64,000 nt of DNA from Candidatus Schekmanbacteria bacterium (GTDB lineage: Bacteria > CSSED10-310 > JACPHN01): contig JACPHN010000133.1 in NCBI GenBank assembly GCA_016188575.1, forward strand, positions 1 through 64,000. Direction: 5' to 3'. Positions within the stretch are counted from its first letter, which is position 1. Every line of letters starts with the position of its first letter. Below the pieces are notes generated by a model. That model saw only the letters and a program-made list of their open reading frames with translations, was not told where the DNA came from and made no database searches. The position numbers and the translations under genes were made by a program. This document shows, in pieces, positions 51,958 through 64,000 of this stretch.

Positions 51958-52497
51958 GTGAGCGCCACCGACGACCTGCAACACCTTCTCGCCCAACTGC
52001 GCCGACTCGAGCTCGAGCTGAGCACGACGCTGCAGATGCTGCGCGACCTCGGCGTCTGCGGGGACGGCGCCGGGCCGCGGCGCCTCTGGATTCTCTGGAC
52101 GGCAGCCGGCCGTGGTGCGACGGTGACCGAGAGCGACCTCGGAGAAGCCATTGACGGCGCCGGACCGCTTGACCTGGTCGTGGTCCGCGGCGAAGTACGG
52201 GCAGGTGCCGAGCAGGTGAGACTGGGACTCCAGGAGGCAAGACTGTTCGTCGCTCTCGCGCGCGGCGGGGAGAGGCGCCGCGCCGACCTGGAAGCGGAGC
52301 TATGGGGAGATCGGCCGGTGTCGAGATCGCGCGTCTCGGTGCTGGTCGGCCGGGTCAATCGCCGGCTCCTCGAGGCGGGGTTTCCACGCGCTATCCTCGC
52401 TGTGGGTGCACCGGGAGAGGCCTGTCGCTATCGGCTTCGCAAGAGCTTGAGCTGGCTCGTCGCGGAACCGGCGCCCGGCGGTCTCTCCGCCCGCTGA
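51958..52497 (+). CDS. Hypothetical protein with possible winged-helix DNA-binding end
   Basis: GTG 51958 is used, giving 179 residues that begin VSATDDLQHLLAQLRRLELELSTTLQMLRDLGV, a helical or coiled N-terminus. A middle region (RLWILWTAAGRGATVTESDL, DLVVVRGEVRAG) looks alpha/beta. The C-terminal 90 residues (EARLFVALARGGERRRADLEAELWGDRPVSRSRVSVLVGRVNRRLLEAGFPRAIL... CRYRL) resemble an OmpR/SARP-type winged helix with recognition helix and beta wing. It heads the signalling/transporter cluster and could be its regulator. Similarity is by pattern only. Confidence 0.5.
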   Translation: MSATDDLQHLLAQLRRLELELSTTLQMLRDLGVCGDGAGPRRLWILWTAAGRGATVTESDLGEAIDGAGPLDLVVVRGEVRAGAEQVRLGLQEARLFVALARGGERRRADLEAELWGDRPVSRSRVSVLVGRVNRRLLEAGFPRAILAVGAPGEACRYRLRKSLSWLVAEPAPGGLSAR

Positions 52498-53004
52498 CTC
52501 CCCATCCCGATGCCCAATCTACACGGCCGAGCAGTAGAGCGCCTGAGGCCGGGGGCTCGTCCTTGGGCCTGGCAGCCATGGTGGGCGGGCATCCTGCTCT
52601 CCTCCGACCGAAGGCGGCCGGGATGGCCTCCCACCTGTTGGCCGTCGACCCGTAGCCGAACCGGCGGGCGAGGCCAGGCCCGGCGCAGGGAAACCCGACA
52701 GGCTGCAACGGCGCGTGACAGGCGGGGCGCGCCGCTCTGCGGCGCGCGGACCACGCGCGCGCGGACGTTGGGAACGGTGGGGCGGGAAGGGTATCGAAAC
52801 GCGCTTCGCGACGCTCCCGCCAGCGCTGGCACAAGCGTTGCAACGCGATCTCTCGGACAGCGAGCCCCTGGCCATCAGAGCCGTCAACCTGAAAGGCAAC
52901 CACGCAGGCATGAGTCAGACCGAGAATGCACACTCCCTCGCGGATGCCTCGCACCGGCCGGGCCGCGCCGCCCCAGCGGCCACGCGACTACTGGCGGTGC
53001 CGCG
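52498..53004. other. Intergenic region upstream of the kinase gene
   Basis: 507 bases. A candidate small ORF (listed next) ends at the kinase start, but its first half is Arg/Gly-rich and unconvincing. Otherwise nothing recognisable; the cluster promoter may be here. Confidence 0.35.
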
Positions 53005-53008
53005 GTGA
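52715..53008 (+). CDS. Possible small ORF overlapping the kinase start
   Basis: 97 codons; residues 28-60 (ETRFATLPPALAQALQRDLS followed by SEPLAIRAVNLKG) look protein-like and its TGA overlaps the kinase GTG (GTGA), the overlap type seen elsewhere in the cluster. The rest is low complexity and there is no clear ribosome-binding site. A chance frame is equally likely. Confidence 0.25.
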   Translation: MTGGARRSAARGPRARGRWERWGGKGIETRFATLPPALAQALQRDLSDSEPLAIRAVNLKGNHAGMSQTENAHSLADASHRPGRAAPAATRLLAVPR

Positions 53009-54072
53009 GCGCCCTGGACGCGGCGATGGCCGTCCTCCTGGTCGTGCTGTTGATGGCCGCCAGTGTGCTCGCAGGTGCTCTCGTCGTACGCCGCGGGCGC
53101 CCTCACCGCGACAGCCGCCTCCTGGATCCGCAGGGTTACCTGACGCCGGAGACCCTCGCCGCCATGGAACGTAATCTCACCGGACGGCTGCTCGGCCGGT
53201 ATGTGCTCGAAGGCGTGCTCAGCACCGGCGGGTTCGGCGCCATCTACCGGGCGATCGACCTGCACCGCGAGACGCGCGTCTGCCTCAAGATGCCGCGACT
53301 CGACCGCATCCAGCAAGAGGTCCAGGGCGGGAGCTCGTTTGGGACCTTCATCATGGAGGCCAAACTGCGGGCCAAGCTGCAGGGCGATCACCACATTCAG
53401 ATTTACGATCGCGGGTTTCTGCTGGTGCTGCTGCCTGGCTTTCAGGTCAAGGTGCCGTTCTACTCCATGGAGCTCTTTCCGGGAAGAAACCTCGGCGAGA
53501 TCATCCGGGAGCAGGGAAAGCTGCCGCTGGAGTGGGTCCACCAGATCTTCCTCGGCGTATTGCAGGCGCTGAAAGAGGCACACCTGGAGGGGGTTATCCA
53601 TCACGACCTGAAGCCAGCGAACATTCTGGTCGAGCTGGCGCCGGCGCGGCGCGCGAGCGATCGCGGTCGACCAGACCGGGTGCTGCGCGTGAAGCTGATC
53701 GACTTCGGCCTGGCAGGAAAGCCGGGAAGTGGGGGCACGGAGCCCGTGAGGGGCACGCTTGGCTACATCGCGCCGGAGCTGTTCAACGGCGCGACGCCAG
53801 GGCCGGAGACCGACGTCTTCTCGCTGGGCGTGATTTTTCTCGAGGCCATGACCGGTGGCCGCTGTCAGGAGGCCGGCGACGGCCGTGACGGTAGCAGCGA
53901 CTGGGTGAGCTGGGTGCGCGGCGGCCGCGAGCTGGCGGTCCCCGCGGCGGTGCCAGCGCCCGAGCGAGACCTGGTGAAGCGCATGGTGGCGCGGGATCCG
54001 CGCTGCAGACCAACCACAAACGAGCTCCTGCTGCGGATTCGCGACCGCCTGCACCGCAGCCCGGGGCAGTGA
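53005..54072 (+). CDS. Membrane-anchored Hanks-type Ser/Thr protein kinase
   Basis: 355 residues from GTG 53005 (an ATG follows at 53026). Unusual order: an N-terminal membrane helix (MAVLLVVLLMAASVLAGALVV) and then a cytoplasmic kinase, with no ectodomain. Kinase motifs: Gly loop LEGVLSTGGFGAIYRA, Lys in VCLKMPRLD, catalytic loop VIHHDLKPANIL (HHD for HRD), LIDFGLAG (DFG), GTLGYIAPELF (APE) and TDVFSLGVIFLEAMTGG. All catalytic residues are present, so it should be active. It precedes two FHA proteins and a PP2C, the usual readers and eraser of Thr phosphorylation. Confidence 0.9.
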   Translation: MSALDAAMAVLLVVLLMAASVLAGALVVRRGRPHRDSRLLDPQGYLTPETLAAMERNLTGRLLGRYVLEGVLSTGGFGAIYRAIDLHRETRVCLKMPRLDRIQQEVQGGSSFGTFIMEAKLRAKLQGDHHIQIYDRGFLLVLLPGFQVKVPFYSMELFPGRNLGEIIREQGKLPLEWVHQIFLGVLQALKEAHLEGVIHHDLKPANILVELAPARRASDRGRPDRVLRVKLIDFGLAGKPGSGGTEPVRGTLGYIAPELFNGATPGPETDVFSLGVIFLEAMTGGRCQEAGDGRDGSSDWVSWVRGGRELAVPAAVPAPERDLVKRMVARDPRCRPTTNELLLRIRDRLHRSPGQ

Positions 54073-54085
54073 GGAGGCGAGACCG

Positions 54086-55036
54086 ATGAGAGGTACCGGC
54101 ACTGGCGCGCGACGCGAGCACCCACGCGCGCGTCTCCTGATGGCGATGCTGATCGCCGTGGCGGGCACCGCCTGCGAGCAACTGGCGCCGCAGCGCACGG
54201 AAATAAGCGACGTGCTCAACAACCCGGGCAAGCAGGGAGCGACCGTGTGGGTCTACGGCATGGTCGGCCAGGTCGTGCCCGACAACATCGGGTCCAGCAT
54301 CGGCTACTTCACGCTGCTGGACGACCTCGGCGCGACTCTGAGAGTGCGCACCCTCAGCGGGTTTCCGATTTCCGGTGCGCGTGTGTGGGTGAAGGGAAGG
54401 GTCGCCCCACCGGACGCCGAGGGCGCGTACCTCGTCGCCGAGCAGATCGGCGGCAGCGGCTGGGTGTACTGGGTGATCTACGCGGCCATCGCCGTGCTCG
54501 GGGTGGTCATCGTCGCGCTGGTGATCATGCTGTTGCGGCCCGCGGACCACCGCGCGCAGGAGGCGTACCCGCCCGGCGCACCCGTGTACGGTCGGGGACC
54601 GGCCGCAGGTTTCTCGGTGCAGCCCACCGTTGATTTCGTGCCGCCTCCCACTACCGGCGGGCGCTCGTCACCCAAGATGGGAGAGCAGCCGACCGGAGAC
54701 TTCTTTGGTCGGCTGGTAGTCGAGAGCGGCGAAATCGAGGCTGGAGGCAAGCGACAATTCGAGCTCGTCAACCTCAACGCTCAGCCGACGGGTCTGATCG
54801 TCGGGCGCGCCGATGACGCCGCGATCCAGTTGCTCAACAGCACCATCTCGCGCCATCACGCTCAGTTCCTGCTGTGGAACGGGACCAAGGTTGCAGTCCG
54901 CAACCTGAGCAACCGGCCCATTCAGATCACCGCCGCGAACCAGACAAAGAACTTGGCGCAGAACGACACCGCGGTTCTCGAAACCGGCAACATGCTCCAG
55001 CTTGGCGCGGTTCGCCTCCGCTTCGAGGCCTTCTAA
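54086..55036 (+). CDS. OB-like/TM/FHA signalling protein
   Basis: 316 residues from ATG 54086. The N-terminal hydrophobic segment ends at AVAGTAC (Cys30), like a lipobox. Residues 35-120 have an OB-fold-like strand pattern (ISDVLNNPGKQGATVWVYGMVGQVV ... GARVWVKGRVAPPDAEGAYLVAEQIG) seen in bacterial tOB/DUF-type exported domains. A strong membrane helix (WVYWVIYAAIAVLGVVIVALVIML, 127-150), a flexible Pro/Gly linker with Thr (QPTVDF, EQPTGDFF) that could be kinase targets, and a C-terminal FHA domain (LIVGRADDAAIQLLNSTISRHHAQFLLWNGTK) follow. FHA inside, OB-like domain outside: a possible sensor linked to phospho-Thr signalling. Confidence 0.8.
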   Translation: MRGTGTGARREHPRARLLMAMLIAVAGTACEQLAPQRTEISDVLNNPGKQGATVWVYGMVGQVVPDNIGSSIGYFTLLDDLGATLRVRTLSGFPISGARVWVKGRVAPPDAEGAYLVAEQIGGSGWVYWVIYAAIAVLGVVIVALVIMLLRPADHRAQEAYPPGAPVYGRGPAAGFSVQPTVDFVPPPTTGGRSSPKMGEQPTGDFFGRLVVESGEIEAGGKRQFELVNLNAQPTGLIVGRADDAAIQLLNSTISRHHAQFLLWNGTKVAVRNLSNRPIQITAANQTKNLAQNDTAVLETGNMLQLGAVRLRFEAF

Positions 55037-55055
55037 CCGCGGAGAGACGATCGGC

Positions 55056-56882
55056 ATGGTCGTGGCGCGCGGCGAGATCGAGGTCGGGAAATACAGCGAT
55101 ACCGGGAGGGTGCGCACGCTCAACGAGGACGACTGCGCGGCGGTCGTGTTCCCGGCGCACTTCCCGGTCCTGGCCTTGTTGGCGGTTTCGGATGGGATGG
55201 GCGGGCGCAACAAAGGGGAAATCGCGAGTCAGGTCGCCATCAACGCGGCGCGGCTCGTGGTTCAGGAGCTCGCATCGCGAGGAGCGCCCGCGACCGGCGA
55301 GGCCATGCAGCTCCAGGATTTTGGCCTGGCGGCCCTGAGCGCCGCCAATGACGCGGTGCTCGCCGAGATCGACCGGCACGGAGGCGGAGCGGGAGCGATG
55401 GGAGCGACGCTGACGCTCGCGATTGTATCTGAGACCCACTGCGGCATTGGCCATATCGGCGACTCGCGCGCGTATTTGTGGCGCGCTTCGCTGCTGTCCC
55501 AGCTCACCGAGGACCATGCGGTGGGCAGCACCTTGACGCGCAGGCTTGGCAAGGCCGCGGACATCGAGCCGCAGGTCGCCGTGATTCCCGTGGCGGCGGG
55601 GGATGCGCTGCTGTTGTGCTCGGATGGGATCGTGCGGATGGTCAGCGACGCCGAGCTCGCCGCCTGCCTGGAGGGTGCCGAGAGCGCGAACGACGCGTGT
55701 ATCGCGGCGGTGCGGCTGGCAAACCTGCACGGCGGGGTCGACAATGCGTCGGTGGCGGTAGCGGCACTGGGACGCCGGCAGCGGAACCCTGCCGCGGCGC
55801 AGTGGCTGGCCGACGCGCTCGGGGCACAGGAGGCCGGCGCGGCGTCCGCGCCGGGGCTCACCGATCCGATCGCCGTGGGCGGGCGAGCGCTGCTTGGCCC
55901 AGGGGTGATGCCGCCGGAGACGATGCCGGGCGCGGCCGGCGGCATGGCCCCCGCCGCTGCGATGGGGCGACCGAAGGCGGCCGTCCTGGTGGGTCTGGCC
56001 TTCGTCGTGCTGCTCGCCGGGGTACTCGCAGGGCTCGCGGTGCAGCTCCAGTCGACACCCGCCCAACTGCCAGAAGCGGTGCCTTCTGGGCTCTGGCCCC
56101 CGCGCGCCGTGGCGCCCACCGGGCTTGCTCGCTACCCGCTACCGACGCAAGCGCCCCGAAAGCTCGCCTTCAGCCCGGTGCGTACGGCGGCGCCGCCGCC
56201 GCGGACGGCAACTCCCGCGGTAACGCCTACCGCGGTGCGCACGCCGGCGCCGCCGGTCGCGCGAAACCTGGGCACCGAGCATGCTGCGCGGCCACAGCAG
56301 GGGGCTCCGGAAGCGCACCGCAAAGACCGCCCACGCGCAGCCCCCCTGGCTCCGCCGGTGGGAGAAGGCAAGGAGGGAAGCACCGTCTCTCCGGCGCCGC
56401 CACCACCGACGCCTTCCGCGGGTCATCGGCCGGCAGCCGGCCCGAGCACGGGCACCACCAGCCGGCGGCAGTGCGCGGGTGGCGTCGAGCTTTCGGCGTG
56501 CCGGCCCGCCGCTCGGGAGCCCTTTGCGCTCCGCATTACAAGCTGCGTGCCGCCGCCAGGAGCCCGACTGGCAGTGTGGCCGGGCACCGTTGGAGCAGCG
56601 TGCGGTGAGCGTCCGCTCACCTCCGACCCGCATTACCTCACCCAGGCCCCGGATCCGGAGCTCGACCTCTTTCATTCCTCGAAGCCGGCGCCCGCATCGC
56701 CGGACCTGTGCCTGGAGCTCGAGAACCGGGAAGATGGACATTTCCTGGCCGCGTCGTCGCAACCGTGGATCGACGGCTGCCAGAACGATGCCCCGGCGAG
56801 CGCGGCCGCGCCGAGCGCGGTCGAGCCCTCCGCAACCGCCCCCTCCGCGCGGGAGAACAAGGACGATGATCATGCCCGATAA
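55056..56882 (+). CDS. PP2C-family Ser/Thr phosphatase with transmembrane C-terminal extension
   Basis: 608 residues from ATG 55056. Residues 1-240 are a PP2C domain with metal-binding motifs: SDTGRVRTLNEDDC, LLAVSDGMGGRNKG, GATLTLAIV, GHIGDSRAYLWR, LTEDHAVGSTLTRRLG, LLCSDGI and VDNASVAV. After an Ala/Gly/Pro linker comes one membrane helix (AAVLVGLAFVVLLAGVLAGLAV, about 310-332). The remaining 275 residues are Pro/Thr/Ala-rich and then contain a Cys-bearing tail (CAGGVELSAC, RITSCVPPPGARL, GAACGERP, PDLCLELENREDG), expected in the periplasm. It would remove phosphates added by the adjacent kinase. Confidence 0.88.
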   Translation: MVVARGEIEVGKYSDTGRVRTLNEDDCAAVVFPAHFPVLALLAVSDGMGGRNKGEIASQVAINAARLVVQELASRGAPATGEAMQLQDFGLAALSAANDAVLAEIDRHGGGAGAMGATLTLAIVSETHCGIGHIGDSRAYLWRASLLSQLTEDHAVGSTLTRRLGKAADIEPQVAVIPVAAGDALLLCSDGIVRMVSDAELAACLEGAESANDACIAAVRLANLHGGVDNASVAVAALGRRQRNPAAAQWLADALGAQEAGAASAPGLTDPIAVGGRALLGPGVMPPETMPGAAGGMAPAAAMGRPKAAVLVGLAFVVLLAGVLAGLAVQLQSTPAQLPEAVPSGLWPPRAVAPTGLARYPLPTQAPRKLAFSPVRTAAPPPRTATPAVTPTAVRTPAPPVARNLGTEHAARPQQGAPEAHRKDRPRAAPLAPPVGEGKEGSTVSPAPPPPTPSAGHRPAAGPSTGTTSRRQCAGGVELSACRPAAREPFALRITSCVPPPGARLAVWPGTVGAACGERPLTSDPHYLTQAPDPELDLFHSSKPAPASPDLCLELENREDGHFLAASSQPWIDGCQNDAPASAAAPSAVEPSATAPSARENKDDDHAR

Positions 56883-58788
56883 GCAAGGCCGAGCTCCCTG
56901 GCAACCGCCGGCGCCGCGCCCGGCACCGCGCTCCCGATCGCGCCGGCGCGCCACGCTGCTGCTCGCGTTGGCCACGAGCTCGTTGAGCATGATGTTGCTG
57001 GCGGTCGCGGCGCTGATGGGTGGCGCTCGCCCCTACGCCGGCGCCGGTGGCGGCGGCATCATCGGCGGCGCCGGACCTGGAGCCGCGCCCTTCGTGGTCG
57101 GCTCCCCAGGCCCCGCCCCGATGGTCTCCTCCCCGGGCGGCGCTCCCGCCTCCGCCCCGCCCGCATTGCCCGCCCCGCCGCGACCGCCGGCACGTCTGAG
57201 CTGGGCGCGTTACGCGAGTATCATCGTCTGGGGTTACCAGGTCGACGTCCTGGATTCGGCGGGCGGCACCGTGGAGTCGGTCAGGCTCATCGGCGACTCC
57301 GAGCGCAGCCTGCTCATTCGCCGCTTCTCCCATCTGCGCGAGAACGAGCGCTATCGCTATCGCGTCACGCCGATCGGCACTGGCGGTGAAGACCTCTCGA
57401 AGCTCCTGCGCCAGGGCGAGCAAGCTCAAGAGGGCAGCTTCTACTTCGACGTCCAGGCGGAGCCGCCGAGCGCGATCGCCATTGTCGCACCGCGGGCGGG
57501 CGAGGTGTCGCGCGATCCTCGGCCGACCGTGAGCTGGACGGCGGCGGTGGATCCCGACCCCAACGACAGCATCACCTATGAGGTGGAGATGAGCCAGGTC
57601 GCACCGCGGGCGCGCGACTTCGCGACTACGCGAACCGGCGACACCGCGATACGCTTCGACGCGCCGCTGGACGAAAACACGACGTGGCATTTCCGGGTCA
57701 CCGCCGTGGATACCACCGGCCTTCGCAGCGCCGCCACGGAATGGCAGCAGTTTGTGGTCGACGCCATCGCCGAGCCGCCGTCGATCCCGGCGCAACTGGC
57801 GGTCGAGGTGTCCACGACACGCATCAGCTTTTCCTGGCAACCAGCGCTGGACCCCGATCCGGGCGACAGCGTCGCCGGATACCTTTTCGAGGTTGCGCAA
57901 AGCGAGCAGCTCGCGGCGCCGCTGATCGCGGAAACCGTCGATGCGCCAGGCTTCGTCCTCGACGCCGCCAAGGTCGAGCCGGACACGAAGTACTATGCTC
58001 GGGTCCTGGCCGTAGATCGCTCGGGAATGCGGTCGGAGCCGTCACCGCCGCTGCCGTTCGCGCTCGCCGGTGAGCGGGTTCTGCGGCCGCCGCAACCGGC
58101 CACGAAGACGGCGCTGACAGTTGACGAGGGGCTGTCCTGGACCCCTACAAACGGCCCGGAAGAAGTGACGACCTACGAGGTCAACGTCGAGGACGCTTCC
58201 GATGCGCCATCGGAGCCGATCAACCGCATGACGGACAAGGCGTACCTGAGCCTGCGGGACATCAACGGCCTCCGGATCGGCGGCGCATATCGGTTTCGCG
58301 TGCGGTCGTTCGGCGACCGCGGCCTGCGGTCGGACTGGTCGCCGTTCGTCGAGATCACGATCGAGAATCGACCACCTGGCGCGCCGCGGGAGCTCCGGGT
58401 CGAGCGGCCCGAACCCGGGAGCTCCGACGGCGTCGGCGCGGGCGACGCGCTGAGCTGGCAAGCGGCGACGGATCCCGACAACATCGCGCCTTTCGTACCC
58501 GCGGACGGACCTCGCCTCACCTACGAGCTGCAGGTCGCCACGGACAGGGGCTTCTCCGCGCTCCTGCACCGGCGCAGCGAGCTCACGGCAGAAAAGCAGG
58601 TAATCGCGGCGGACGTCGGGCTGTGCCAGGCGCTGCAGGTCACCACGGCGACGCCGCTCTACTGGCGCGTGCGCGCCGTCGATGCGCAGGGCTTGGGTTC
58701 CGAGTGGGCCCTGCCTCCAAATGGGTTCGTGCTGAAGAGAGAAAGAAACTGGCTGGGTCGAGCGAAGAGGTATTGCCCGTATGACTGA
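56872..58788 (+). CDS. Membrane-anchored fibronectin type III repeat protein
   Basis: 638 residues; ATG 56872 lies eight bases after AAGGA, with another ATG two codons upstream, and overlaps the PP2C stop. An N-terminal basic region and membrane helix (RRRATLLLALATSSLSMMLLAVAALMGG) with a Gly-rich linker (GAGGGGIIGGAG) are followed by about five Fn3-like units: WARYASIIVWGYQVDV, PTVSWTAAVDPDPNDSITYEVEMS, RISFSWQPALDPDPGDSVAGYLFEVA, GLSWTPTNGPEEVTTYEVNVED and ALSWQAATDPDNIAPFVPADGP. It would stand on the outer side of the inner membrane. No enzyme motif. In this cluster it may be the external ligand or peptide binder. Confidence 0.8.
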   Translation: MPDKQGRAPWQPPAPRPAPRSRSRRRATLLLALATSSLSMMLLAVAALMGGARPYAGAGGGGIIGGAGPGAAPFVVGSPGPAPMVSSPGGAPASAPPALPAPPRPPARLSWARYASIIVWGYQVDVLDSAGGTVESVRLIGDSERSLLIRRFSHLRENERYRYRVTPIGTGGEDLSKLLRQGEQAQEGSFYFDVQAEPPSAIAIVAPRAGEVSRDPRPTVSWTAAVDPDPNDSITYEVEMSQVAPRARDFATTRTGDTAIRFDAPLDENTTWHFRVTAVDTTGLRSAATEWQQFVVDAIAEPPSIPAQLAVEVSTTRISFSWQPALDPDPGDSVAGYLFEVAQSEQLAAPLIAETVDAPGFVLDAAKVEPDTKYYARVLAVDRSGMRSEPSPPLPFALAGERVLRPPQPATKTALTVDEGLSWTPTNGPEEVTTYEVNVEDASDAPSEPINRMTDKAYLSLRDINGLRIGGAYRFRVRSFGDRGLRSDWSPFVEITIENRPPGAPRELRVERPEPGSSDGVGAGDALSWQAATDPDNIAPFVPADGPRLTYELQVATDRGFSALLHRRSELTAEKQVIAADVGLCQALQVTTATPLYWRVRAVDAQGLGSEWALPPNGFVLKRERNWLGRAKRYCPYD

Positions 58789-59206
58789 CTGGATGGTGGG
58801 AGTGCCTTCCTGGATCGTCGCCGCCCTGGTGCCGGCGCTGTCGGCAACGATAGTGTGCCTCGCCGCGGTGCTGGCGGGTGAGCTGGGCGACCGGCGCCGC
58901 CGGGCGCGCTGGCGGCTGGTGGTGATCTCACCGGAGGGAGACCGCGTTGATTACGGCGTGCGCCCGCGCGAAGCGCTGTGCATCGGCCGCGAAGACGCGG
59001 CGGGCATTCCCATTCGCGATCCGCACGTGTCGCGGCGACATGCGCTCGTCACGGCGGCCCACGACGGCCTGGGAGTGCGCGACCTGCACAGCCTGCACGG
59101 ATCCCGGGTCAACGGTGTCCCGGTCGAGTGGGCGTGGCTGGCGGATGGAGATTGCATCTACATTGGGTCCTGGACGATTCTCGTGCGGCAGGAGCCGAGC
59201 CCATGA
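58781..59206 (+). CDS. TM-FHA protein
   Basis: 141 residues. One membrane helix (WIVAALVPALSATIVCLAAVLAG) is followed by a compact FHA domain, residues 48-135, with the canonical phospho-Thr pocket: CIGREDAAGIPIRDPHVSRRHALV (Gly-Arg, Ser-x-x-His), DLHSLHGSRVNGVPVEWAWL (Asn-Gly). It overlaps the Fn3 gene by eight bases and its stop overlaps the next start (ATGA), so it is translationally linked to the ABC ATPase. It may recruit the phosphorylated partner to the transporter. Confidence 0.88.
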   Translation: MTDWMVGVPSWIVAALVPALSATIVCLAAVLAGELGDRRRRARWRLVVISPEGDRVDYGVRPREALCIGREDAAGIPIRDPHVSRRHALVTAAHDGLGVRDLHSLHGSRVNGVPVEWAWLADGDCIYIGSWTILVRQEPSP

Positions 59207-60273
59207 AGCCCGGCGAGTTGCTGGCTGCGCAAGGGGTCACGGTGCGGTTCCGGCGCGGCCGGGGACGGGAAGCGCGGGAGCACGAGGCGCTCGCGGCCGT
59301 GGACTTCGGCGTTGGCGCCGGCGAAATTGTCGGTCTGGTCGGCGAATCCGGATGCGGCAAGAGCACGCTGGCGCGGGTGCTCGCGGGCTTGTTGATCCCG
59401 GAGCACGGCACGGTGACGCTGGGAGGGCGGCCGGTGAACGAGCTCGCGGGCGCCGCTCGCCGCCGCTTTCGCCGCAGCGTGCGGTTGATCTTTCAGAGTC
59501 CCGACGCGGTGCTCAACCGCGCCCTGCGCGTCGGCGAGCTGCTGGCCGACGTCGTCCGGGCGCAAACCGACGGTGATCGCGCCGGGCGCCGGCGGCGTGT
59601 CGCCGAGCTTCTCGACGAGGTGCGCCTGGAGCCACGCCTGGCGGAACGCTTTCCGGGCGAGCTTAGCGGCGGGCAAAAGCGCCGCGTGGGCATCGCGGTA
59701 GCGCTGGCCGGAGCTCCCGCGGTGCTACTCGCCGACGAGCCGCTCGCCGGGCTGGACGCCCCCGTGCAGCTCGAGATTCTCGCGTTACTGCGACGACTTC
59801 ACGACGAGCGGTCGCTGGCCGTCGTCCTGATCAGCCACGATATCGGGGCGGTGCAGGCGCTGTGCTCGCGAGTCGTCACCATGCTCGGGGGCCGGATCGT
59901 GGAATCGCGACCGCGCCGGGAGGGGTTTTCGGGTCTCGCTGATACGTGTCATCCGTACACCGCCGGGCTGCTGGCCGCGGACCGCGCCGTCGACCAGCGC
60001 GCCGCGGCGGGGGGCGCCGGCACCCGCGCCCTGGGCGCCGCCGAGCTCGCCATGATCGACGCTCTACAGCGGGATACGCCCGCGGATCTGGTGCCGGGGC
60101 AGGGGTGCGCGCTGCTGCAGCGTTGCCATCGCTACGAGGTGCTCGGAAGCGAGGCGCAGCGGCGCCGGTGCGAGGAAGAAGCGCCGCGGCTCTGGCCGCT
60201 CGCCGCGGACCACCAGGTGGCCTGCCACCACGTCCCGGTCATGGCGACCGCGGGCGGAGCGCCGCGGTCATGA
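59203..60273 (+). CDS. Oligopeptide/dipeptide-type ABC transporter ATPase (DppF/OppF-like)
   Basis: 356 residues from ATG 59203. Walker A VGESGCGKSTL, Q-loop LIFQSPDAVLNR, signature LSGGQKRRVGIAVAL, Walker B VLLADEPLAGLD and H-loop LISHDIG are complete. The C-terminal part has HPYTAGLLAAD and a Cys-rich tail (GCALLQRCHRYEVL, RRRCEEEAP) like the oligopeptide-type C-terminal domain, which in relatives holds an Fe-S cluster. It overlaps both neighbours by ATGA, indicating tight coupling. Confidence 0.9.
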   Translation: MKPGELLAAQGVTVRFRRGRGREAREHEALAAVDFGVGAGEIVGLVGESGCGKSTLARVLAGLLIPEHGTVTLGGRPVNELAGAARRRFRRSVRLIFQSPDAVLNRALRVGELLADVVRAQTDGDRAGRRRRVAELLDEVRLEPRLAERFPGELSGGQKRRVGIAVALAGAPAVLLADEPLAGLDAPVQLEILALLRRLHDERSLAVVLISHDIGAVQALCSRVVTMLGGRIVESRPRREGFSGLADTCHPYTAGLLAADRAVDQRAAAGGAGTRALGAAELAMIDALQRDTPADLVPGQGCALLQRCHRYEVLGSEAQRRRCEEEAPRLWPLAADHQVACHHVPVMATAGGAPRS

Positions 60274-61262
60274 GCCGCTGCCGTCGCCCCCCCGCGGCTG
60301 CCCGCTTGCGCGCGACCAGCGGCGCGCTCGCCGCGGCGCTTGGGCCGGTGGCGATCCGCGCGGCGGTCACGGTGTCGGCGGTTTTTGCGCTCATCGTTTT
60401 CTCGCCGGGATACGCGCTGCGGGCGCCCGGCACGGGCAGCGGGGAGAATGCCGCGGAAGCCCTGTACGCCTGCGGATCGCCGATCGTCTCGGAAGCGATC
60501 CCCGAAGTCGCGCGCGTCTATGTGACGTGCATGGCGCGGCTGGCGCGCGCCGACCTCGGGGCGTTCGGCGGCGAGCCGCTCTGGCGCCGCCTCGCGCAGG
60601 GGTCGGCGCGCACGGTTGCCCTGATTGTCGCGGCTCTGGTGCTCGGGCTGCTGCTCGGAACCACGGCCGGGCTGCTCCTGGAGCGACAGGAAGGCACGGC
60701 GATCGGGGCGGGTCTGCGGGGCGGGTTACCCATAGTATCGCTCGTGCCGGTCTTCGCGCTGGCCTATCTCACGCAACCGCTCGCCGGCCCGGCGGCGGAG
60801 GCGGCCTCGTCCTCCGCCGGCCTGCTCGGTCTGGCGACCGGTATCGGCGTGGCGGCCGCTGCCTGCCTGGCGCTGGGCGACGGCACCCTGGCGGAGATCG
60901 CCAGGGTTACGGCGCTGCACGCGGCGCGCATTCGGAATGCTCCGTTCATGCGCACCGAGCGGGCTCTGGGCGGGCGCGTGGCGCGCCACTTCGGCCGCAA
61001 CCTCGCGGTGCCGTTGCTCGACTTGTGGGCGAATCGGTTCTTGTTTCTGCTCAGCGGAGCCATTGTCGCGGAGTCGATTTTCGACCTGCACGGGCTCGGT
61101 TGGCTGCTCTACGAGGCCTTTCGGTACCGGGACCTGCTGCCGGCGCTCGGCGCGGCGGCGGCGACGGTGGGGATCGTGGAGCTCAACCGCGCGCTGGTGG
61201 GGCTCGTCAGGAATCGCATTGAACCGCGGAGACCAGAGAGGCGGCGAGATGTCCTCCGTTGA
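60270..61262 (+). CDS. ABC transporter permease (DppB/OppB-like)
   Basis: 330 residues from ATG 60270. An N-terminal helix (AVTVSAVFALIVFSPGYALRAP), a periplasmic loop with the SPGYALRAPGTGSGENAAEAL segment, then four or five helices. The EAA-type loop is RTERALGGRVARHFGRNLAVPLLDLWANRFLFLLSGAIVAESIFDLHGLGWLLYEAF, matching the ending of DppB permeases. Sequence is divergent compared with housekeeping Dpp systems. Confidence 0.85.
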   Translation: MSRCRRPPAAARLRATSGALAAALGPVAIRAAVTVSAVFALIVFSPGYALRAPGTGSGENAAEALYACGSPIVSEAIPEVARVYVTCMARLARADLGAFGGEPLWRRLAQGSARTVALIVAALVLGLLLGTTAGLLLERQEGTAIGAGLRGGLPIVSLVPVFALAYLTQPLAGPAAEAASSSAGLLGLATGIGVAAAACLALGDGTLAEIARVTALHAARIRNAPFMRTERALGGRVARHFGRNLAVPLLDLWANRFLFLLSGAIVAESIFDLHGLGWLLYEAFRYRDLLPALGAAAATVGIVELNRALVGLVRNRIEPRRPERRRDVLR

Positions 61263-62376
61263 CTCGTGGGGAGACGATGAACGCGGCTCCTTGCCCGAGT
61301 GGAGCGGCGGCGGTAGCAGCTTGCTGCGCGCGGGCGCCGGCGGGGAAGGGATGGTGAGGGAAGGTTGGGGGCAGCCGCCGGGGCGGCGCTTCGGGCGGCT
61401 GTGGCCGGGGATCAGCGTGCATCGTGCCGGGGAGGCACACCGGTGCCGCATGCGACGCGCCGCGCTCGCGCTGTCGGTGGCGGCGGTGGTGCTCGGGCCG
61501 CTGTTGGGCGGAGTGGTGGTCAGCGTCGTATTTCCGGATACGTTTCGGGCGAGCCCGAGCTGGATCGCGGTGGCGCCGCTCCCGCCCCGTGCACCGGTGC
61601 TGGGTCGACTGCTCGATGGGCGCCCGGCGCTGGAGCGCGGGGTGTGGGCGTCCGACCGCGCCGCGGACCAGACCGCCGTGGCGGCGGCGGATGACGCGCA
61701 TCTCTGGCTCGGCGTGGACCGCTTCGGCCACGCGCTGCTCGACCGCCTGGTGCTGGGATTCGCCGCGTTCCTCGGTCCGGCGGTGTTGGCGGTCGCCATC
61801 TCGCTCGGCGCGGGAATGTTGCTCGCCGCCCTGCTGCGCTATCCGGACAGATTGCTCCGGGTGCGGCGCGCGGCTCATTTCGCGGTCGACCTGCTGGCGT
61901 CTCAGCCGCGGCTGATGCTGTTGCTCGCCACCGGGGCGGCCACGAGCTTCGACCTGACCGCGATGATGGTCGCGCTCGGCATTCTCAACATTCCGCGGGC
62001 GGTAGCGGCGATTGGCCACCAGTTCGACCTCCTGAGCCGACAGGGGCTGCTGGAGGCGCTGCGCGAAGCCAATATTCCCGCGTGGCGCATCGTCGGCCGG
62101 CACGTGCTCTGGTGTCATTGCCGCCACCTCCTGCTCGTGCAGGCCGCCGTGGGCATGGCCGACGCGTTGATGACGGAAGCGACGCTGAGCGCGTTGCAAT
62201 ACGGCGGCCAGGACGTGAGCTGGGGGGCAATGGTCTTCCAGGGCAGGATGGACGTTTACAGCGGCATCTACTGGACGATGGGCGTGCCGGTAGGCGCCAT
62301 CGTGCTCACGCTCCTGGCCTTTCACCAGCTCGCGGAGGGGATCGCGCTGCTGACCTCGGAGAAGGGAGCCGCGTGA
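61249..62376 (+). CDS. ABC transporter permease (DppC/OppC-like)
   Basis: 375 residues from ATG 61249 (GAGAGG upstream), overlapping the previous gene by 14 bases. A 65-residue polar N-terminus rich in Gly/Ser/Arg is unusual. Then a helix (LALSVAAVVLGPLLGGVVVSVVF), a periplasmic region with GVDRFGHALLDRLVLGF (the DppC 'GTDxxGRD' counterpart), and the EAA loop RQGLLEALREANIPAWRIVGRHVLWCHCRHLLLVQ. Ends with a helix VPVGAIVLTLLAFHQLAEGIALL. Confidence 0.85.
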   Translation: MSSVDSWGDDERGSLPEWSGGGSSLLRAGAGGEGMVREGWGQPPGRRFGRLWPGISVHRAGEAHRCRMRRAALALSVAAVVLGPLLGGVVVSVVFPDTFRASPSWIAVAPLPPRAPVLGRLLDGRPALERGVWASDRAADQTAVAAADDAHLWLGVDRFGHALLDRLVLGFAAFLGPAVLAVAISLGAGMLLAALLRYPDRLLRVRRAAHFAVDLLASQPRLMLLLATGAATSFDLTAMMVALGILNIPRAVAAIGHQFDLLSRQGLLEALREANIPAWRIVGRHVLWCHCRHLLLVQAAVGMADALMTEATLSALQYGGQDVSWGAMVFQGRMDVYSGIYWTMGVPVGAIVLTLLAFHQLAEGIALLTSEKGAA

Positions 62377-63437
62377 TGGTGTCGCTCACCCCTGGACGTT
62401 GGGACGCTATCGCCGCTGCCGGCGCCGGCGCGATGGCCGGCCTTGCGGCCGGTGCGGCGGCCGTGGAGCCGTTGCTGGAGATTCGCGGGCTGCATTGCTG
62501 GCTCGAGGGGCGAAGGGAGGTCGTCCGCGCTGTCGACGGTGTCGACTTGAAGGTGATGCCCAACGAGGTGCTTGGAATCGTGGGCGCATCGGGCAGCGGC
62601 AAGAGCATGACGTTCCTGGCGGTGATCGGGCTGGAGCCGCAGCAGCCGGGAGTCGTCGCCGGCGAAATCCGCTATTGCGGGCGCGATCTGCTGCCGAAGA
62701 TGAGGCTCTACTGCCACATCGGCGGCGGCGGTGGCGGTGGCGCGGCGGGCGGCGGCGACGTCGAGGTGCGCCGGCGCACGCGCTCCTTTTGCCGGCAGCG
62801 CGAGCGACTGCTGCGGGGAGTGCGGGGCACCGAGGTCGCGACGATCTTTCAGGAGCCGGTTCATTCCCTCGACCCGCTGTTCACGACCGGTGAGCTCCTC
62901 GCCGAAGCGCTGCGCACGGGTGGGTGCGGCGGGGGCCGCAAGCGGCTGCGCGTGGCGGCGCTGGAGTGGCTGACGCGCGTGGGCATTCGCGACGAGCGCG
63001 TGATTGACCTGCATCCGATGCAGCTCAGCGGCGGCATGTGCCAACGCGTCATGATTGCGCGGGCCCTGGCGTGCGGGCCGCGGCTGGTGATCGCCGACGA
63101 GCCGACGACAGCGCTCGACGCTCTCGTGCAGCTCCGCGTTCTGGACCTGCTCGAGTCGCTGCGCCGCGAGCGCGGCATTTCGGTGGCCCTGATCAGTCAT
63201 GACCTGCGACTGGTGGCGCGCTACGCGACACGAGTCGCGGTGTTTTGCGCCGGGCGGGTCGTCGACGAGGGGCACACGGGCGAGCTGCTGCGGCGGGCGG
63301 CGCGCGGCGAGGCGGCGCCGAGCACCCAACGGCTGTTCGCCGGCGTCGCCGGCAGAGGGACGGCTGCGAACCTGAGGCAGGCACCTGACGAAGACCTCCC
63401 ACCTCAGCTCTTTCAGCCGACGGGTGGCGCGGGATGA
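62376..63437 (+). CDS. Oligopeptide/dipeptide-type ABC transporter ATPase (DppD/OppD-like)
   Basis: 353 residues; ATG 62376 overlaps the previous stop (TGATG), GTG 62373 is the alternative. Walker A VGASGSGKSMT, Q-loop TIFQEPVHSLDPLFT, signature LSGGMCQRVMIARAL, Walker B LVIADEPTTALD and H-loop LISHDLR. A Gly-rich insert (HIGGGGGGGAAGGGDVEVRR) between Walker A and the Q-loop is not usual. A short N-terminal extension precedes the first strand. Last gene of the cluster; no substrate-binding protein is found before or after. Confidence 0.9.
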   Translation: MVSLTPGRWDAIAAAGAGAMAGLAAGAAAVEPLLEIRGLHCWLEGRREVVRAVDGVDLKVMPNEVLGIVGASGSGKSMTFLAVIGLEPQQPGVVAGEIRYCGRDLLPKMRLYCHIGGGGGGGAAGGGDVEVRRRTRSFCRQRERLLRGVRGTEVATIFQEPVHSLDPLFTTGELLAEALRTGGCGGGRKRLRVAALEWLTRVGIRDERVIDLHPMQLSGGMCQRVMIARALACGPRLVIADEPTTALDALVQLRVLDLLESLRRERGISVALISHDLRLVARYATRVAVFCAGRVVDEGHTGELLRRAARGEAAPSTQRLFAGVAGRGTAANLRQAPDEDLPPQLFQPTGGAG

Positions 63438-63959
63438 TGGAGAGGAAGAAGAAACCGCGAGGGGCGCCGAATCACCCGGCGAAAACCGGCATCCATTCTC
63501 GGTGCGCGGGGAATCGGTGCCGGTATCGCCGGCGCTCCGGGCGTGCGCCAGAGAATGAGAGGCGCTCCGGCCCGGCTCGGAGTCGGAAGCGAGGTTCTGG
63601 AGGCAGCGATGGGTTGTGGGGCCGCGGCAACAAGGTGCGCCGTGCCGGCGGCGGGCGCTGCAGCAGGATCGGGCTGCAGAAGATCCCGTTTGGCGATGGA
63701 GCCAGGCGTGACCCCTGCCTCCCCTTGCGGTTCCCTCCTTGCCGCATGGGCAGGCCCGAGCGATGCGCGTTTCTCCGAATCGGCGACGTGACGCGCCAGC
63801 GCATCGTTCAGCGAGCGGCGCGAGGCGCTCGCCAGGGCCGTCCCGTGAAAATCCACCCGGCGAACGACCTCACCTTTCGCCGCGAGCGGCGCGAGTCACG
63901 GAGCGGGATCTTGCCAGGCAGTGGATTCAGCCACGAAGCAAGGAACTTGGAGGAGTCAG
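63438..63959. other. Intergenic region after the ABC cluster
   Basis: 522 bases without a credible gene. It contains a hairpin-type dispersed repeat (CCCGGCGAAAACCGGCATCC near 63475-63494, opposite strand ATGGATGCCGGTTTTCGCCG) of the kind common in environmental genomes, and ends with the AGGAACTTGGAGGA ribosome-binding region for the next gene. Confidence 0.45.
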
Positions 63960-64000
63960 ATGATCGAATCCAGCATTCACGGTAACGCGGGAGCACGAGA
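63960..64000 (+). CDS. Start of a gene cut by the window end
   Basis: ATG 63960 has GGAGGA five bases upstream and opens MIESSIHGNAGARE, the last visible residues. Too short to assign; its position after the transporter makes it worth checking as a missing partner. Confidence 0.5.
   Translation, partial: MIESSIHGNAGAR

Follow-up and report, generated by a model that had tools for sequence, protein, structure and literature searches.

The subject of this report is a run of nine genes near the end of a 64,000-nucleotide stretch of DNA (the window) from a Candidatus Schekmanbacteria bacterium. The genes of a kinase/FHA/PP2C signalling module run in one direction, and with overlapping ends, into those of a Dpp-type peptide ABC translocator, and there is no gene for a substrate-binding protein (SBP) inside the run. 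Our reading, held tentatively and at a little under an even chance, is that this operon encodes the translocator half (subunits F, B, C and D) of a second, split peptide importer under Ser/Thr-phosphorylation control, with the gene for its SBP at another place in the genome, most likely in a set on the contig we call C217. On the sequence comparisons described below we favour such a split system over the proposal of an earlier note on this DNA, in which an Fn3 or OB-like ectodomain replaces the SBP. The source is a 9.2 Mb draft genome, the window being part of its contig C250 (66,243 bases). Our searches covered about 450 different genomes plus one pattern scan of 84,980 species genomes, and absence elsewhere means absence from this sample.

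The nine genes lie on the + strand between 53005 and 63437. The earlier note had the run and the gene order right and counted eight. They are listed here, followed by a possible regulator that precedes them.

53005..54072, + strand: membrane-anchored Ser/Thr kinase with a cytosolic kinase domain and a predicted transmembrane (TM) segment at residues 10-28 (PF00069, E 1.2e-33)
54086..55036, + strand: external domain, TM segment (130-148), linker and cytosolic FHA domain (PF00498, E 7.5e-6)
55056..56882, + strand: PP2C/Stp1-type phosphatase, TM segment (309-327) and an external tail, proline-rich and Cys-containing (PF13672, E 2.3e-14)
56866..58788, + strand: fibronectin-III (Fn3) protein, N-terminally anchored or secreted (PF00041, E 2.6e-21; hydrophobic segment 31-49)
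58781..59206, + strand: short TM-FHA protein (PF00498, E 1.4e-11; ATGA overlap with the F gene)
59203..60273, + strand: DppF-like ATPase (ABC_tran, E 4.4e-31; 48 of 60 family-invariant residues kept)
60270..61262, + strand: DppB-like permease (PF00528, 27.2 bits, cut-off 26.4; 34 of 50 invariants kept)
61249..62376, + strand: DppC-like permease, strongly diverged (41 of 70 invariants kept; PDB DppC chains, E 1.3e-8)
62373..63437, + strand: DppD-like ATPase (ABC_tran, E 1.1e-22; 63 of 96 invariants kept)
51958..52497, + strand: possible winged-helix regulator, OmpR-type C-terminal-like (Pfam Trans_reg_C, E 0.042, 14.3 bits, cut-off 26.2)

Pfam returned Pkinase, FHA, PP2C_2, fn3 and FHA in that order, then ABC_tran, BPD_transp_1 (E 4e-6) and ABC_tran, which bears out the domain identities given in the earlier note; the C permease has no Pfam match. 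Two small gaps open the run (+13 between the kinase gene and the first FHA gene, +19 between that gene and PP2C). From PP2C on every junction overlaps, just as the earlier note had it: PP2C/Fn3 by 17 bases (-17), Fn3/short TM-FHA by 8 (-8), TM-FHA/F by 4 (-4), F/B by 4 (-4), B/C by 14 (-14) and C/D by 4 (-4). Six consecutive short overlaps suggest translational coupling. The kinase probably starts near 53005; the part of its open reading frame at 52510-53004 looks non-coding. The putative winged-helix gene, about 500 bases upstream of the kinase, is of uncertain operon membership, and as a regulator it stays suggestive. No SBP gene occurs in the operon or in 63438-66243, which was read to the contig end; the absence remarked on for the window thus holds directly after 64000 as well. 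Only a repeat-rich surface protein is found there: a long Ala/Thr/Gly-rich repeat protein, likely on the surface, begins at 63921-64000 and runs onward to the end of the contig (C250:66243).

The translocator has the two DppB/DppC-type permeases of a Dpp/Opp importer, C being recognized by PDB chains and Foldseek and not by Pfam. The best Foldseek matches of its AlphaFold model are DppC/OppC chains; against the NCBIfam dipeptide permease models it reaches 62 bits, below their cut-off. Its LGTDxxGRD motif has become LGVDRFGHA and the Gly of the EAA loop has become Asn. From TM1 to the conserved block that follows it, DLG, the B permease keeps a stretch of similar length; this corresponds to the scoop region of DppB. 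Both ATPases keep the Walker A/B, signature and H-loop motifs in conserved columns. F retains four C-terminal Cys of the Fe-S type (residues 302, 308, 323 and 341) and D is without the C-terminal Cys/Fe-S region, so that one ATPase, not both, has the four-Cys [4Fe-4S] set. In the alignment D also has an insert between Walker A and the Q-loop, as is found in its subfamily. All four subunits have drifted: B keeps 34/50, C 41/70, D 63/96 and F 48/60 of the family invariants, against 84-95% in the proteins of a related locus on contig C38 of the same genome.

That locus holds the paralogue of the C permease, at 41% identity; a second relative lies in another genome of the phylum (G002, contig C517), at 36%. 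Both loci are cassettes of a PD40 beta-propeller, a family-5 SBP, B, C, D and F. By homology to C, 49 loci came out of the scan of the 84,980 species genomes. About 26 have the same type of cassette; they are spread over Pseudomonadota, Nitrospirota, Rokubacteria and Desulfobacterota-type lineages. Members of the subfamily are linked to an SBP in every case where their gene context can be seen in full. In a tree of C permeases the window groups with C38 and G002 C517 (100/100), apart from 26 other loci and on a very long branch. By sequence, then, the window translocator is a fast-diverged member of an SBP-linked Dpp/Opp subfamily (SBP-PD40-TPR type). The typical cassette is widely conserved and apparently unnamed; it runs lipoprotein, PEGA/TPR-like protein, PD40, TPR protein, SBP, B, C, D, F, with the D-subunit insert between Walker A and the Q-loop (L057, L066, L071, L074 and some 20 other loci).

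Where might the missing SBP be? Genome searches by family, from which all our genome-wide counts come, found 13 family-5 SBP matches in the window's own genome. Only two fall in the subfamily's clade, one on C38 and one on C217. The clade has two C permeases here (window and C38) and two SBPs (C38 and C217). One SBP and one translocator sit together on C38; the other halves lie apart and both are strongly diverged. It is this symmetry that leads us to a split second system. The C217 SBP matches the C38 SBP at 396 bits, the next being C238 at 150 bits, and its gene closes the order zinc-ribbon/TPR protein, PD40 protein, small protein, SBP. No permease or ATPase of the family stands beside it in the 20 kb read. 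It keeps 74/105 invariants, a divergence similar in degree to that of the window translocator, and C217 is like the window in base composition. The two halves would, we think, pair. The C238 SBP was rejected as a partner: it has no adjoining permease, but it branches outside the clade. Adjacency of C217 to the window contig was also rejected, since the ends do not overlap, one end of C217 having been compared.

Other SBP genes in these genomes have company worth recording. On the minus strand of C217 a gene for a VWA-TM-FHA protein (L137:266-3802) lies about 10 kb from the unaccompanied SBP; on the SBP's other side, some 5 kb further on, is a kinase gene (C217:20918-21541). At L135:2822-5366 (G000:C220) a family-5 SBP gene without a permease comes directly after an FHA gene with an N-terminal zinc-ribbon-like segment. 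G002 has two unaccompanied clade SBPs (C389, which is L153, and C17, which is L154), the first of them sister to C217 (83/82), so that this genome has three clade SBPs against one detected B-C-D-F set. Unaccompanied SBPs of this kind suggest an alternative, in which several SBPs serve one translocator, as DppA1-A5 serve a single DppBCDF in Pseudomonas aeruginosa (PMC4206461). In the SBPs of the window's phylum the SBP domain is interrupted by an SH3_3-like segment (L137:13726-15681, L054:8325-10160, L055:2124-3932, L153, L154). Compared with bacterial SH3 models, the insert passes the cut-off in two G002 proteins and falls short of it in C38 and C217; it is absent from the one aligned homologue of another phylum. 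It hints at cell-wall-derived ligands.

The kinase/PP2C/FHA module is predicted to be catalytically intact, with FHA domains of the phospho-Thr-binding type. The CLK lysine and the HHD, DFG and APE motifs can all be read in the kinase. The phosphatase keeps its metal-binding motif residues (RTLNED, DGMGG, GDSRAY, SDG, DN) and matches the Stp1_PP2C_phos model at E 2.9e-43, below cut-off. The first FHA protein has the GR, SRHH and N motif residues, both FHA domains of the run keep their signature residues, and the linker of the first contains two QPT.DF motifs (QPTVDF and QPTGDFF). The kinase and the short TM-FHA protein each have a single N-terminal TM segment with nothing sizeable outside. Large external parts are hence confined to the first FHA protein, the PP2C tail and the Fn3 protein, where the earlier note had given them to nearly every signalling protein. 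The OB-like fold it assigned to the external domain of the first FHA protein found no confirmation, there being neither a Pfam nor a PDB match for that domain; the single-sequence structural model (predicted local distance difference test, pLDDT, <50) was too poor for use. A defence system was considered and set aside: the kinase matches PADLOC kinase models as generic kinases do, and no other operon gene tested matches. The same genome has a second FHA-ABC linkage (L180:10976-15640, G000:C6), in which a gene whose product has two FHA domains, a TM segment and a lytic-transglycosylase-like part overlaps the genes of a NatA-type ATPase and an ABC-2-like permease.

If signalling and transport are coupled, the membrane-anchored kinase would phosphorylate Thr within its own circuit, the best candidate sites being the two QPT.DF motifs. 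The phospho-Thr would be read by the FHA domain of the first FHA protein and by the short TM-FHA protein. The latter, a natural adaptor whose gene overlaps F, might dock on the translocator, and the PP2C would reset the phosphorylation state. Phosphorylation may then gate uptake, or else the translocator may report ligand flux to the kinase. The fuller proposition, a peptide ABC importer wired into the kinase/FHA/PP2C circuit (as a phospho-Thr-gated transporter or as the kinase's ligand-sensing receptor), served by an SBP encoded far away and with cell-wall-derived peptides as possible ligands, we regard as speculative and rather doubtful.

Several points weigh against the split importer. Assembly of E. 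coli DppD depends on the Fe-S region, and the window D subunit has none. G002 (87% complete) has a C217-type SBP in C389, yet a window-type translocator was not found in it, so SBPs of this type need not pair with such a translocator. The long branches leave the exact placement of the window in the tree unsure. A physical link between C217 and the window, or their expression together, is hypothetical. So is phosphorylation of any transporter subunit, and gating of the transporter by Thr phosphorylation is a proposal drawn from gene order. Could the transporter simply work without an SBP, with the Fn3 or OB-like ectodomain in its place? An SBP gene is found neither in the operon nor before the contig end, and the Fn3 protein is encoded two genes before F. 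We nonetheless think this very unlikely: the unconfirmed OB fold aside, the translocator's subfamily is SBP-linked in all the loci with a fully visible context, and an SBP of the right clade stands unaccompanied on C217. To our knowledge no Fn3 domain serves as a peptide-delivery module. The B permease, moreover, keeps a stretch of similar length where DppB has its scoop, the region that engages the SBP (PMC12136057). The E. coli DppBCDF complex has no ATPase activity by itself; DppA is required, and the DppB scoop motif enters the DppA cleft (PMC12136057). Taken with the retained stretch in B, that requirement tips the balance towards an SBP and away from a substitute of the Fn3 or OB kind. 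A repurposed sensor deserves more thought, and we rate it as unlikely. Here the translocator would import little and act as the ligand or flux receptor of the kinase/FHA/PP2C circuit, an SBP in trans delivering the ligand, like GlnH for PknG. The strong divergence of C (41/70 invariants, with LGTDxxGRD and the EAA-loop Gly changed) and the loss of the D Fe-S region beside retained ATPase motifs would fit; a kinase without an ectodomain would need an external sensor; and GlnH-GlnX-PknG is a precedent for an SBP feeding a Ser/Thr kinase (PMC6069109). Yet the catalytic motifs are intact in both ATPases, Mycobacterium tuberculosis DppD is also without the Fe-S domain (PMC12136057), so its absence alone does not equal loss of transport, and the sensing itself is something we infer.

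There is also the possibility that signalling genes and transporter are chance neighbours, or merely co-transcribed, without functional coupling. The whole arrangement was found in none of 7 phylum relatives (the phylum sample being 8 genomes in total, the window's own included), in none of about 380 diverse genomes and in none of the 26 genomes with the subfamily. Conservation in relatives, the lack of which the earlier note named as refuting its proposal, was thus not found in anything sampled, with the phylum represented by those 8 genomes only. An Fn3 query of 60 genomes gave generic Fn3 matches only, and a query with the OB/FHA protein across the phylum gave one weak FHA match, elsewhere in the window's own genome. 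Searches with the C permease in 386 diverse genomes, and in two more phyla, found nothing window-like that scored above its C38 paralogue. Up to 10 kb on each side of the 49 C-homology loci, FHA, kinase and PP2C had no match. The arrangement is single-genome so far, and kinases and FHA proteins abound in that genome, with at least 50 kinase matches, 55 FHA matches (about 40 genes by our estimate) and about 5 PP2C genes in 9.2 Mb. Against chance stand the six overlaps, and the expectation for a random 10 kb is only about 0.05 for kinases, 0.04 for FHA genes and 0.005 for PP2C genes. We judge mere neighbourhood distinctly unlikely and keep to the split importer as our working view.

Why does this matter? 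The activators of most bacterial Ser/Thr kinases, and the targets of their FHA partners, are largely open. Here one operon puts a complete translocator of the importer type beside a kinase, a phosphatase and FHA adaptors, and peptide uptake or ATPase activity could be read against phosphorylation state. An SBP that may be split off from its translocator is also a caution against calling a transporter 'SBP-less' from a single locus.

Like E. coli DppABCDF and M. tuberculosis OppABCD and DppABCD, the window system is built of two permeases and two ATPases, which share the fold of theirs, and has the ATPase motifs and the C-terminal Cys set of F. It differs from them in having no SBP in the operon, in the order F-B-C-D and in the signalling genes included; its D subunit departs from E. 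coli DppD, and agrees with that of M. tuberculosis, in the missing Fe-S region. With the P. aeruginosa DppBCDF/DppA1-A5 system it would share several SBPs that work with a Dpp translocator; we know of no kinase/FHA/PP2C control of that transporter. The two-gene operon PknF-Rv1747 of M. tuberculosis, a kinase with an FHA-bearing putative ABC exporter (PMC3908365), likewise joins an ABC transporter with FHA domains and a Ser/Thr kinase. In Rv1747, however, FHA is fused to the putative exporter, whereas in the window the FHA domains are on separate membrane proteins, the translocator is of the importer type and a PP2C is added. In the GlnH-GlnX-PknG-GarA/OdhI pathway of Actinobacteria an SBP is proposed to feed a Ser/Thr kinase that targets an FHA protein (PMC6069109, PMC9769921). 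There the SBP and kinase are co-conserved in a conserved operon and work via the membrane protein GlnX; the window operon holds a full translocator and its SBP is not in the operon. The threonine phosphorylation pathway of type VI secretion systems (T6SS), PpkA-PppA-Fha, has the same set of kinase, PP2C and FHA protein together (PMC5995506). Its partner is a secretion system and not a peptide ABC translocator, and the operon genes, which alone were examined for this, match no T6SS family. The open-access literature searched held no described equivalent that joins FHA to a peptide transporter, in keeping with the earlier note's impression. PknF-Rv1747, GlnH-GlnX-PknG-GarA and the T6SS pathway each share part of the design, but in none of them are a kinase and a PP2C brought together with FHA domains on separate proteins and a translocator of the Dpp type; if our reading is true, kinase/FHA control extends from exporters and secretion systems to peptide import.

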